Of a stretch of 21,950 nt of DNA, positions 4,100 to 7,624 are shown piece after piece. Position 1 is the first letter of the stretch; each line of letters opens with the position of its first letter. Under the pieces are notes generated by a model. It was not told the DNA's origin. It did not search any database and saw only the letters and a list, made by a program, of their open reading frames with translations. The position numbers were made by a program, and so were the translations under genes. This stretch comes from a virus. Location: positions 1 through 21,950 of IMG/VR virus record IMGVR_UViG_3300031227_003783; one strand, given 5' to 3'.

Positions 4100-5638
4100 A
4101 TGCCAAAGTCTAACATTCTAGGGGTTGTGCTGCGGTACGTTGCAGAGGCGCGCGCCTACGCGATCTGTGAGGTACGGGATAGCTTGTCGGGAATTATGAC
4201 CGACGCCAGCCGTGACCCGTCGTGGCAATTGGCCGAGATGCTAGACGTTAACCAAGAGCTACGCCTGGCTATGACAAGCGTCTGGGTATATAGCTCAATC
4301 GACCTGGTATCGAACAGGGCGGCTGGCGTGCCGTTTACGGTGCAAACCGTAGACGACGGCAAGTGGAAAGTGCCCGATCCTATCCACCCATTCCAGGCAC
4401 TGCTAGAGTCGCCCAACTCGCAGGCCAGCCAATCGCTGATGCGTCGCCAGATTCTATACTGGCACAGACTGCTAGGCAACGCCTATGTCGCTATCACAAC
4501 GGAGGGGCCAGGGTACGGTGAGCCGCAAGAGCTGATCGTGTTGCCAGCCACGGCCGTCAAGCCCATCCCGGTGCCGCGCGAAAGCACATTAACAGGCCAG
4601 CCGATAAACGATTATGAGCTAACGATCAACGGGCAAAAGTGCCGGTGGCCAGGCGAGAACATGGTACACTTTCGCACGCCTAACCCGTTCGACTTTTGGC
4701 AAGGCTTGTCACCACTGGTAGCGGCTAGGCTAACATTGCAGCAGGACTATGCACAGCAAAAGTGGATGGCCGATTGGTTCGGCAAAGAGAACGCCATACC
4801 CACGGCAATCATCAGCCTGCCGCCCGAAATATCGCCCGCCGACTTTGAGCAAGCCAAGAACTCTATCCGCCGAGAGTTCGGCGAGAACAAGCGGTCTGCC
4901 ATCATTCGCGGTGGCGATATGTCTGTGCAGACTATCACGCAGACGCTAGAGCAAATGGAAATGCTCAAAAGCCGTGAGTTCAATCGAGATAGCATTGATC
5001 GTATCTATGGCACATCGGGGATGTTCGAGCCGGTATCATCTGGTGAGGCTCAGAACGCGCGCGAGATTGGATTCACGCGCAACGTGATTCAGCCGCTAGT
5101 TGACTATATCGCAGAGCAATGGACGCTCAGTGTGGGGCCGTACTATGGCGACGATTGGCGCGTACATGCTGAGAATGTCATCCCGCAAGACAGGGCATTG
5201 GCAGTCGCAGAGTACAACAGCTATAGCCAAGATCGAACCATCGACGAAAACCGCGCCGTGTTGGGGCTTGACCCGTGGGAGCCAACGCCAGAACAGACGC
5301 TCTTGCTTGACCTTGGCGCAGAGCCTAGCAAAGTGCCGGTGAGACTAATAGGGCAAGTGGACGCGCAGAGCGATCCGGGCAGCCTGCCAGGGCAGCAATC
5401 GCCAGAGCAAGCAACGGACGACATGGCGGGCAAGGCCATCGCCCTGGGCGTAGAGACGGAACTGCAACGCTGGCGCAAGGTGGCGCTGCGAGCATTCCGC
5501 AACGACGAACAGCGAGACTTTGACACCGAGATTATACCGCTAGGCATACAAGAGGGCATTCGCTCAATGCTGTTGCGCGCCTCCACAGAGGAGGAGGTGA
5601 AGGCGGCCTTTGTGCCACCCTTTTGTCAGAGCAGTTAG
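4100..5638 (+). CDS. portal protein (HK97-type)
   Basis: This 512-residue protein would form the dodecameric ring at the capsid vertex through which DNA passes. It has the features of the phage_portal family: an N-terminal helix, V-W-V-Y-S-S-I-D-L-V-S-N-R-A-A (about 60-75), H-P-F-Q-A-L-L-E-S-P-N (about 95-105), L-G-N-A-Y-V-A-I (about 128-135) and M-V-H-F-R-T-P-N-P-F-D. The C-terminal part after about 400 is acidic and variable. It sits 9 bases after terminase with GAGGG before the ATG, and overlaps the next gene by 29 bases. Its 3' end contains the SD of that gene. Confidence 0.93.
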   Translation: MPKSNILGVVLRYVAEARAYAICEVRDSLSGIMTDASRDPSWQLAEMLDVNQELRLAMTSVWVYSSIDLVSNRAAGVPFTVQTVDDGKWKVPDPIHPFQALLESPNSQASQSLMRRQILYWHRLLGNAYVAITTEGPGYGEPQELIVLPATAVKPIPVPRESTLTGQPINDYELTINGQKCRWPGENMVHFRTPNPFDFWQGLSPLVAARLTLQQDYAQQKWMADWFGKENAIPTAIISLPPEISPADFEQAKNSIRREFGENKRSAIIRGGDMSVQTITQTLEQMEMLKSREFNRDSIDRIYGTSGMFEPVSSGEAQNAREIGFTRNVIQPLVDYIAEQWTLSVGPYYGDDWRVHAENVIPQDRALAVAEYNSYSQDRTIDENRAVLGLDPWEPTPEQTLLLDLGAEPSKVPVRLIGQVDAQSDPGSLPGQQSPEQATDDMAGKAIALGVETELQRWRKVALRAFRNDEQRDFDTEIIPLGIQEGIRSMLLRASTEEEVKAAFVPPFCQSS

Positions 5639-7157
5639 GGAAACAGCGAGCGGATTGAGTGACCCGAACGGAGACGCCAAAGACACGGGCGAGCTGAGGC
5701 TATTCCGAGCAACGCGCCTCAGCTTGAGGCAACAGCTAGAGCGTATCATGGATAAGCTAGGAGATCCGCCTGACATGTCGAAGCTAGACGCGGCGTTCTG
5801 GTCCGCAGAGGATAAAGAGTTGATTCGTGTTATCGAGCCGATACTAGAGCGCATGGCGCTAGAAGCCGCCGAAGAGATGCTAACGTCTGTGCCGATGGGC
5901 GTTGACTGGGGCCTGATTGCAGACGACGCCGCGCAATGGGCGCGTGCATACTCAGCCGCTCTTGTCAGGGGCGTTGACGGCACAACTCGCGGCTATGTCG
6001 GGCGCAAAGTTGCCGAGTACATCGAGACTCCCGGAGCAACCATTGGCGATTTGGAAAAGAGCCTGACGCCGATGTTCGGCCAGTCGAGAGCGCAAAGCAT
6101 CGCAGTCACAGAGACGACGCGAGCCTTTGCCAGAGGCCAGGATTTGACCGCTAGGCAATTGCGAGCGCAGGGTCTAACGCTAGAGCCAGTCTGGCATACG
6201 AACAGAGACGAGCTTGTGTGCCCGGTTTGTGGGCCAAACGATGACAAGCCGAAGAGCGCAGGCTGGACGGTTGATGAGATACCAGCTCACGTAAATTGCA
6301 TTCTACCTGGAAACAAAGTTATAACCCCCGGCGGCGTTGTTGCGGCAGCAAAGTCGTTCTATGTCGGCCGGGCGATTGAAGTGAGACTTGCAAACGGGCG
6401 CATCCTTACCGTTACCGAGAATCATCCGATATTGACGGAGCGAGGATGGATTGCGGCTCAATTCCTGACAGAACGAGACAAGGTATTGTACAGCGCCGCG
6501 CCCGAGGGGATAGCGGCGGCTATCGACCCAGATAATGACCACATGCCAGCCATGATCGAGCAGGTATACAGTACGCTCAAAGAATCGTTTGGCATGGTGG
6601 CCGCAAGAATGCCAGCCGCCGCCAAAGACCTCCACAGCGACGGAGCTAATGTCAAGGGCGACATCGACATTGTATATTCCAACAGCCTTTTGCTGAATGA
6701 CACTGAACCCCATAGCGCGCATGTCGATAGCCAACACGTTTTCGGTCGGGGAAGTATGGCTACAGGATCGTTCTTTTCCGAGCGCACGTCTATGTTTTTC
6801 GCTGGTCGAGACAGTGCGGCCTCTGGTGGCGGCGTGGGCGTTATCGAGCATCCTAGTCCTATCGTCGGCGCTCGCGTTGGCCCAACGAATGTACATACTG
6901 TCGGACACGTTGCGGGGCTTGATATTGGCCGCTATGAGTCGTCGGCGGAAAGTCCAGCGATTGACACCCGCCTCGCGAGCCAGTTTCTGTTCCGGTTTGC
7001 CAGCCACGTAACGCCTGAGCAGATCGTCAAGATTAGGTATTTCGATTTTGCGGGACATGTTTATGACCTCCAGTGTGATTTGTATTCATTATACATCGCA
7101 TCAGGGGTGGTTGTCAAGAATTGTCGTTGCTGGGAGACTCACCAATGGCAGGCATAG
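5610..7157 (+). CDS. MuF-type minor head morphogenesis protein interrupted by an intein
   Basis: The 515-residue precursor has three parts: N-extein 1-229, intein 230-504 and an 11-residue C-extein. Spliced length is 240. The exteins match the Mu gpF / SPP1 gp7 family: R-A-Q-S-I-A-V-T-E-T-T-R-A near 160, W-H-T-N-R-D-E-L-V-C-P-V-C near 200, and the family's H-x-N-C-R-C-W motif, which is rebuilt only by splicing (H-V-N before the intein, C-R-C-W after it). Such proteins assist capsid assembly or DNA delivery next to the portal. The start is TTG 5610, supported by GAGGAGGTG about 11 bases upstream inside the portal gene and by a stop at 5598 in this frame. A later ATG near 5748 is possible but would lose conserved-looking residues. 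Confidence 0.88.
   Translation: MCHPFVRAVRETASGLSDPNGDAKDTGELRLFRATRLSLRQQLERIMDKLGDPPDMSKLDAAFWSAEDKELIRVIEPILERMALEAAEEMLTSVPMGVDWGLIADDAAQWARAYSAALVRGVDGTTRGYVGRKVAEYIETPGATIGDLEKSLTPMFGQSRAQSIAVTETTRAFARGQDLTARQLRAQGLTLEPVWHTNRDELVCPVCGPNDDKPKSAGWTVDEIPAHVNCILPGNKVITPGGVVAAAKSFYVGRAIEVRLANGRILTVTENHPILTERGWIAAQFLTERDKVLYSAAPEGIAAAIDPDNDHMPAMIEQVYSTLKESFGMVAARMPAAAKDLHSDGANVKGDIDIVYSNSLLLNDTEPHSAHVDSQHVFGRGSMATGSFFSERTSMFFAGRDSAASGGGVGVIEHPSPIVGARVGPTNVHTVGHVAGLDIGRYESSAESPAIDTRLASQFLFRFASHVTPEQIVKIRYFDFAGHVYDLQCDLYSLYIASGVVVKNCRCWETHQWQA
6303..7058 (-). CDS. antisense homing endonuclease nested in the intein (Vsr/DUF559-like)
   Basis: This 251-residue protein is encoded wholly on the opposite strand of the intein. 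Residues 10-50 form a helix-turn-helix of the type L-L-x-R-Y-x-A-G-K, L-A-R-E-A-G-V-N-R, F-R-R-R-L. A linker with T-S-E-K-H-R-R-A-L (85-93) resembles DNA-binding linkers of homing endonucleases. A Vsr/DUF559/EDxHD-like nuclease core follows: Glu106, Q-Q-K at 122-124, I-Y-N-V-D (Asp132), V-A-V-E-V-F-G-G-G-W-H (Glu143, His150), Arg162 and L-L-D-H-G-W-H-V-V-I-I-W-V. ATG at 7058 has GGAGG 8 bases upstream and a consensus promoter further upstream. Its TAG is the complement of the CTA codon of intein residue 3. It would cut intein-free alleles at the insertion site. The family placement is from memory of the motifs, not a search. Confidence 0.88.
   Translation of the reverse strand: MSRKIEIPNLDDLLRRYVAGKPEQKLAREAGVNRWTFRRRLIAANIKPRNVSDSMYIRWANASADDRTRMLDNAHAATRGRTVSTSEKHRRALGKERSCSHTSPTENVLAIDMRAMGFSVIQQKAVGIYNVDVALDISSVAVEVFGGGWHSCGHHAKRFFERTVYLLDHGWHVVIIWVDSRRYPLGRGAVQYLVSFCQELSRNPSSLRQYRMILGNGKDAPVCKSHFNRPADIERLCCRNNAAGGYNFVSR
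7067..7071 (-). promoter_or_regulatory. Shine-Dalgarno site of the antisense nuclease
   Basis: The minus strand reads GGAGG here, followed by TCATAAAC and then ATG, an 8-base spacer. On the sense strand the same bases are part of the Asp-Leu-Gln codons of intein block F (G-H-V-Y-D-L-Q). The site shows that translation of the antisense frame is purposeful and decides the start at 7058. Confidence 0.85.
7088..7117 (-). promoter_or_regulatory. consensus sigma-70 promoter for the antisense nuclease
   Basis: Read on the minus strand, TTGACA (7117-7112) is followed by an 18-base spacer and TATAAT (7093-7088). Both hexamers match the sigma-70 consensus fully. Transcription would start near 7081, giving a leader of about 23 bases that contains GGAGG and then the ATG at 7058. 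The whole promoter lies inside the C-terminal codons of the intein (S-L-Y-I-A-S-G-V-V-V-K). It gives the nuclease expression independent of the late operon, and possibly antisense transcription against it. Confidence 0.85.
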
Positions 7158-7624
7158 TCATTGAGATCAAGGGCATCAAATCAGCACAGCGCGCGCTAGG
7201 CACAATTGCGGGCGGCGCATATCTAAAGGGCGTATTCCGTGCGGGCGCGGTTATGATGCACCACGACATAGCACGTTATCCAGAGAGCACCGCCGCCAAC
7301 CTGCCCAAATCATGGAGTAGCGACGGGCCGAACAGTTGGTACCAGCGAGGCTATGGCCCGAAGTGGGTGCGCAAAGACGGCTCTGTCGGCGGGCGCAAAA
7401 CATCGCAGACACTAGGCAGATCATGGACTACATCGAGCGGCAAGACATGGGCGGCTGTGGGCACTAGGGCCAGCTATGCGCGGTACGTGCAGGGCGCCGA
7501 TACTCAAGCGCGATTCCACAAGGCGCGGGGCTGGCGCACAGATCGGCAGACGCTAGACAAAGTGAGCGAGCGCGTTATCAAGATGATTGACACCGTGATA
7601 GGACGCATATGGAATACGCCATAG
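7145..7624 (+). CDS. HK97 gp10-like / virion morphogenesis protein
   Basis: This 159-residue protein begins M-A-G-I-V-I-E-I-K-G. The ATG at 7145 is preferred over an in-frame TTG at 7121 because GGGAG precedes it at 9 bases and the TTG would overlap the C-extein codons. The middle and end carry T-S-Q-T-L-G-R-S-W-T, V-G-T-R-A-S-Y-A-R-Y-V-Q-G and F-H-K-A-R-G-W, patterns seen in phage gp10-like or virion-morphogenesis proteins that act at the head-tail connection. It overlaps the MuF stop by 13 bases. The exact position in the particle is uncertain. Confidence 0.7.
   Translation: MAGIVIEIKGIKSAQRALGTIAGGAYLKGVFRAGAVMMHHDIARYPESTAANLPKSWSSDGPNSWYQRGYGPKWVRKDGSVGGRKTSQTLGRSWTTSSGKTWAAVGTRASYARYVQGADTQARFHKARGWRTDRQTLDKVSERVIKMIDTVIGRIWNTP

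Follow-up and report, generated by a model that had tools for sequence, protein, structure and literature searches.

A phage intein with a putative homing endonuclease encoded on its antisense strand

A minor head protein gene in a virus record of 21,950 bases, which was analyzed over its whole length and is called the window below, is interrupted by an intein whose opposite strand carries an open reading frame (ORF) for a nuclease-like protein of 251 residues. We consider it very likely that the element is a mobile intein whose splicing and homing functions are coded on the two strands of one DNA segment. With somewhat less assurance, we regard such "antisense inteins" as probably forming a distinct and widespread class of mobile elements, in which nearly all the bases between the splicing blocks are coded twice, the C-terminal block doubles as antisense promoter, ribosome site and start, and the nuclease would be produced early and independently of the late host protein.

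Two proteins in the same DNA

The window carries a head-gene module, in which the ORFs listed first below are accompanied by additional ones with sizes typical of head and tail genes. The intein and its surroundings are organized as follows:

4100-5638: portal ORF
5610-7157, plus strand: ORF of a MuF-type minor head protein, interrupted by the intein
7121-7624: small ORF
5610-6296, plus strand: N-extein, MuF-type or SPP1 gp7-like minor head (head morphogenesis) protein, based on the ORF and on PHROG head-morphogenesis matches; the position of the start codon is uncertain
6297-7121, plus strand: intein of 275 residues, Cys1 to Asn275 (PF14890, TIGR01445, TIGR01443; AlphaFold2 and Foldseek)
6414-6437, plus strand: intein block B, TENHPILT, including His43, which is invariant in 135 inteins
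7053-7073, plus strand: intein block F, GHVYDLQ, with the Shine-Dalgarno site and start codon on its antisense strand
7089-7124, plus strand: intein block G, LYIASGVVVKN, and Cys+1, the antisense of which holds the promoter
7122-7157, plus strand: C-extein, CRCWETHQWQA, and stop

The initial annotation, which was based on the sequence alone, described an intein at 6297-7121 with splicing blocks and no endonuclease motif. These coordinates proved right, and the Pfam and NCBIfam searches agree with that description: Intein_splicing (PF14890) was matched in the sense frame at 3.9e-6 and no nuclease family was detected in this frame with either database, which distinguishes the element from the canonical large inteins. 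Cys1, the TxxH histidine of block B (His43), Asn275 and Cys+1 are all present in the window intein and are conserved in the family, while the penultimate residue is Lys, not His, and is occupied by Ser, His, Lys or Arg in relatives. In the AlphaFold2 model of the sense frame, the splicing halves were predicted with pLDDT values of 90-98 and residues 131-232 with values below 50. The best Foldseek match of this model is the splicing domain of the Mtu RecA intein (probability 1.00), which identifies a Hint fold; as modeled, the sense frame is a RecA-like intein fold with a disordered middle.

The following features were found on the opposite strand:

6303-7058, minus strand, stop codon included: putative antisense homing endonuclease gene, 251 residues
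6930-7031, minus strand: helix-turn-helix (HTH) part, residues 10-43, with matches to Pfam HTH_7, HTH_38 and HTH_58 in relatives and predicted helices at 10-18, 23-30 and 34-43
6453-6749, minus strand: Vsr/EDxHD-like nuclease core, residues 104-202 (MTES_1575, DUF559, 3R3P, 3HRL, Vsr)
6741-6743, minus strand: codon of Glu106, a near-invariant candidate active-site residue
6663-6671, minus strand: codons of Asn130-Val-Asp132
6630-6632, minus strand: codon of Glu143

The codons of the antisense ORF are exactly complementary to those of the intein, in perfect register. As first annotated, and now confirmed exactly, the antisense ATG is the complement of CAT, the codon of block F His254, and the antisense stop TAG is the complement of CTA, intein codon 3.

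The HTH part and the Vsr/DUF559-like core proposed in the initial annotation were both recovered by profile searches, fold prediction and Foldseek. The MTES_1575 restriction endonuclease family was matched by 14 of 21 antisense relatives, and HTH families were matched as well. The top PDB match of the antisense profile, at 2.9e-7, is 3R3P, a "mobile intron protein" corresponding to the catalytic domain of I-Bth0305I, the next matches being HTH proteins and one protein resembling an endonuclease. The AlphaFold2 model of the antisense protein, built from 46 sequences, has a pLDDT of 89, with values above 90 across most of residues 1-220, and combines a helical HTH part with an alpha/beta nuclease core. 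Its top PDB matches in Foldseek are 3R3P, 1VSR and 1CW0, with probabilities of 1.00 and modest E-values of about 4e-3, probably because the target structures have no HTH part, and both Foldseek and the profile identify a Vsr-type nuclease fold. Residues E106, D132 and E143, candidates for part of the E-D-x-H-D motif, are conserved in the antisense protein, and in the alignment with 3R3P an Ala stands opposite D132. In our reading, the antisense protein has an HTH part and a Vsr/EDxHD-like endonuclease domain and is a putative homing endonuclease.

Selection on the two reading frames differs along the element

In the register observed, the first position of a sense codon is the wobble position of the antisense codon, and the third sense position is the first antisense position. 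The pattern of differences over the codon positions was first seen in ungapped pairs and was tested on 46 independent pairs of related inteins. In the middle of the intein, the differences at sense positions 1, 2 and 3 amounted to 4047, 2070 and 3063, respectively (p=1.7e-31), and position 1 exceeded position 3 in 44 of the 46 pairs. The corresponding numbers were 213, 144 and 352 in block A, 604, 311 and 790 in the surroundings of block B, 175, 115 and 363 in blocks F-G and 200, 151 and 452 in the exteins. Since the changes in the middle sit on the antisense wobble position and those at the ends on the sense wobble position, it is the antisense protein which is selected in the middle of the element and the splicing protein at its ends.

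At the level of individual residues, the antisense protein shows invariant Asn130 and Asp132 and 99% conservation of Glu143 in 135 inteins. The wobble bases of these codons are nearly free, and when they change, a Val in the sense frame is exchanged with Ile, or a Leu with Phe. Conversely, sense Cys1, His43 and Asn275 are near-invariant in these inteins and the antisense residues opposite them vary. The two frames are apparently constrained together in a short stretch, sense residues ~80-130 (6534-6686), which is confidently folded in the AlphaFold2 model of the sense frame; sense Asp115, in a DFHGDG motif, is conserved there opposite the nuclease active site, and its codon also fixes an antisense wobble base.

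These data bear on whether the sense intein might be the only coding frame, the antisense ORF and its homologues being nothing but a mirror of sense conservation. The second codon position is indeed common to both frames in this register, and long antisense ORFs in the same register are frequent in high-GC genes, but a mirror image does not account for middle substitutions falling on the antisense wobble position, for an identity in the intein middle of 0.58 in the antisense frame versus 0.45 in the sense frame, or for the presence of only two antisense stop codons where 1078 are expected from the codon usage of the exteins. In addition, independent database families are matched by the antisense protein, and its confidently predicted fold stands opposite a disordered sense middle. 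This explanation was rejected on the basis of codon positions, stop avoidance and synonymous reshuffling (see below), the codon-position test being sufficient in itself to refute it, and we give it practically no credence. The initial annotation had made its reading depend on sense-synonymous variation not freely breaking the antisense frame; the codon positions and the scarcity of stops indicate that such free breakage does not occur.

The converse explanation takes the antisense nuclease as the only genuine product and the sense "intein" as a non-splicing open frame, tolerated as a loop of the head protein. It would fit the disordered and freely evolving sense middle, and an out-of-frame HNH insert of this kind without an intein is known in ShiLan (PMC11855218). 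Blocks A-B and F-G are nevertheless under selection in the sense frame, with the near-invariant Cys1, His43 and Asn275, a Hint fold is predicted, and the inserts of relatives are located exactly at the empty-site junctions of head genes (see below), so that we regard this explanation as very improbable.

Expression signals within the C-terminal splicing block

The last codons of the intein hold, in the antisense direction, the following expression signals:

7112-7117, minus strand: -35 box TTGACA of the antisense promoter
7088-7093, minus strand: -10 box TATAAT of the antisense promoter, after an 18-nt spacer
7066-7071, minus strand: Shine-Dalgarno site GGAGGT, 7 nt ahead of the antisense ATG

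The sigma-70 promoter, TTGACA-18 bp-TATAAT (7117-7088), matches the consensus at 12 of 12 positions and is followed by GGAGGT and then by the ATG. These signals exceed the synonymous expectation throughout the family. When the codons were reshuffled synonymously according to the codon usage of each phage, the promoter score was higher than in the reshuffled sequences in 122 of 135 inteins (p=6.5e-22). Perfect 12/12 promoters were observed in 18 cases, the window and 17 others, versus 0.18 expected, and no promoters of at least 11/12 were detected among 1555 antisense extein windows. The antisense Shine-Dalgarno energy was -7.48 kcal/mol versus -3.01 kcal/mol expected, and it was stronger than expected in 98 of 106 cases (p=6e-18). 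The Leu codon of block F is CTC in 82 of 97 inteins, versus 18 expected. About one-fifth of the family does not have the block F His that provides the start and must start nearby; in these copies, an alternative start with a Shine-Dalgarno site is often located a few codons away. In a small control set of 14 canonical bacterial inteins, neither an antisense promoter nor a Shine-Dalgarno signal was found, and the antisense stops numbered 95 versus 89 expected. The possibility that the promoter and the Shine-Dalgarno site are by-products of the amino acids of blocks F and G was rejected on the basis of the reshuffling, the 1555 extein windows and the 14 canonical inteins. Judging from these signals, host RNA polymerase could transcribe the nuclease gene independently of the late head gene, and possibly earlier.

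Distribution, mobility and known systems

In a tblastn search of 50,697 phage records, the antisense protein matched 119 records at E<=0.1 and 120 at E<=10. In all the matched records inspected, apart from the false hit L021, the match lies antisense inside a gene of the opposite strand, mostly annotated as head morphogenesis, minor capsid, MuF or hypothetical. These phages have Gordonia, Salmonella, Escherichia, Pantoea, Pseudomonas, Vibrio, Aggregatibacter, Idiomarina, Mycobacterium, Rhodococcus and Helicobacter as hosts. Many further loci were obtained by scanning IMG/VR, and a profile scan of genome contigs yielded no loci with alignment A2 and two with alignment A4. Two candidates were rejected as false relatives: L021, which is a kinase-like ORF, and L196, which has only the HTH.

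After the removal of identical sequences, 150 distinct loci were retained, and in 149 of them the nuclease gene is antisense, in register, inside an open ORF with intein blocks, a proportion which leaves room for distant free-standing relatives, since the loci were collected by similarity to the antisense protein. Both N- and C-terminal intein blocks were identified in 138 loci, several others running off the contig, and the sole exception among the 150 is a weak HTH-only match. The homologues with conserved Asp132 and Glu143 on which the initial annotation had also made its reading depend are present in about 150 distinct loci, and its interpretation is largely supported. Features that go beyond it are the promoter and Shine-Dalgarno site on the antisense strand, the large number of family members, the host genes other than MuF and the empty sites.

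When 369 genomes from the class of Aggregatibacter were searched with the profile for free-standing homologues, the only full-length copy found was that of the Aggregatibacter prophage itself; the remaining matches were restricted to generic DUF559/Vsr-like domains, such as a DUF559 stretch in an HsdS-like ORF, or to HTH repeats. Another ORF (L203; G048 C224, 670-2397) contains six tandem HTH repeats resembling the HTH part of the nuclease, without any match to the nuclease core. A relative with 47% identity (L261) lies antisense in a minor head gene of plasmid III of Candidatus Promineifilum breve (Chloroflexota), a phage-like plasmid of 40.8 kb, the head-gene order of which resembles that of the window; this relative hints at what the host of the window might be.

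Empty sites and horizontal transfer are observed in relatives. When the flanks of the element in the Gordonia phage Fosterous are joined, they match Geodirt, Rofo, Galadriel and others as a single piece of 900 nt with 97-98% identity. Fosterous and Angelicage share one antisense intein; in Sedona, whose exteins are 95% identical to theirs, this junction is occupied by an unrelated antisense intein, and inserts of equal length (825 nt) are present there in Nordenberg, Lennon and Sitar. The inteins of the Escherichia phage Snoke and the Salmonella phage SGPC are 95.6% identical, versus just 66-79% in the case of the exteins. Empty sites occur in many Kagunavirus relatives, and two closely related Kagunavirus head genes, those of fEg-Eco06 (L019) and Snoke (L006), carry different antisense inteins at different sites. 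For the family, precise in-frame insertions absent from close relatives are documented in Gordonia and Guernseyvirinae phages, where the joined flanks give single-piece matches.

The host genes also vary. In Virus Rctr197k (L017, 619-2025), the antisense intein is located in a dCMP deaminase, and the label "putative head morphogenesis protein" of this record is apparently due to the intein; PHROG 15127, "head protein", likewise matches the intein region in unrelated hosts. In L102 (715-4119), the intein directly follows a uracil-DNA-glycosylase-like part and the protein continues into a family A DNA polymerase, and in L055 and L138 the intein lies in portal-containing ORFs. Some copies are altered. 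The intein of the Rhodococcus phage REQ3 (L018, 2381-3004), which has about 225 residues, Ala instead of Cys1 and an antisense nuclease without the HTH part, appears to be decaying or non-canonical. The nuclease matches of L114, L149 and L150 are split over two ORFs, as by a stop or a frameshift, L149 having one antisense stop, and these broken copies may result from decay after homing.

The empty sites, the transfer and the variety of host genes form the pattern to be expected of an active homing element. The nuclease might still have its main role elsewhere, in phage exclusion or in antisense control of the head gene, with homing as a by-product: the antisense transcript would overlap the late gene, and free-standing phage homing endonucleases can cause marker exclusion. 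The nuclease gene is however confined to an element which occupies conserved sites, and close relatives have empty alleles there, a signature of homing, and its occurrence in several different host genes also argues against such a role, which we consider unlikely.

In the preferred reading, that of a mobile intein coded on two strands, the sense strand would be translated inside the late head protein, and blocks A-B and F-G would form a Hint splicing domain, expected to cut itself out and to ligate the exteins; a large part of the intervening DNA (sense residues ~131-232) would yield only a disordered linker. The antisense promoter, Shine-Dalgarno site and start in the C-terminal splicing block would drive the synthesis of the 251-residue endonuclease, which would cut intein-less copies of the host gene in mixed infections, and repair from the intein-bearing copy would install the element. 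With its separate promoter, the nuclease could be produced early and in an amount set independently of the host gene, which is a late structural one.

The canonical mobile inteins, such as PI-PfuI and Mtu RecA with their in-frame LAGLIDADG or HNH nucleases, share with this element the Hint domain, the insertion at conserved motifs and an endonuclease between blocks B and F, but their endonuclease is in frame and is translated and released with the intein, whereas here it is encoded by a gene of its own on the antisense strand, equipped with a promoter and a ribosome site. The EDxHD endonucleases, including I-Bth0305I, the best profile match, share the nuclease fold and belong to a family tied to introns and split inteins; a 2009 study by Dassa and colleagues reportedly linked EDxHD (Vsr-like) homing endonucleases to split inteins. 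The genes of these enzymes are located in an intron or between the halves of a split gene and are not known to lie antisense within a continuous intein.

Nuclear rDNA group I introns provide examples of homing endonuclease genes on the strand opposite to a self-splicing host element, as in the case of I-DsqI (PMC9548176). The host element in those systems, however, is a ribozyme, the endonuclease gene lies in a peripheral segment, the interrupted gene is non-coding, the enzyme is of the His-Cys family, the systems are eukaryotic and no bases are doubly protein-coding. ShiLan, a phage DNA methylase insert which is open in the host frame and hides an endonuclease in another frame (PMC11855218), differs in that the enzyme is an HNH nuclease, splicing motifs and a detectable ribosome site are absent, and the word "antisense" does not occur in the paper; the window element is antisense and Vsr-like and has splicing blocks. 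No intein with an antisense endonuclease was found in searches of 5.39 million open papers; an earlier description may be contained in bioRxiv 2025.01.02.630785 (cited in PMC11855218), a preprint on actinobacteriophage inteins whose title includes "non-canonical architecture" and whose dataset probably includes the Gordonia phages described here.

The homing enzyme of an intein would not need to belong to the intein protein, so that a textbook element gains a further architecture. In this family, nearly complete protein coding on two strands occurs naturally and has diverged repeatedly, with a clear evolutionary readout of which strand is selected in which part, and with regulatory signals packed into the codons of a splicing block. 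Many public "head morphogenesis" genes, in Jerseyvirus, Gordonia and Pseudomonas phages, hide an unannotated nuclease gene, and these findings suggest that other apparent mini-inteins are worth checking for antisense endonucleases. The proposed mechanism is testable in cultured phages, in which flanks with 97-98% identity occur with and without the element and, if it is true, the arrangement would free the nuclease from the dosage and timing imposed by the late structural gene that contains it.
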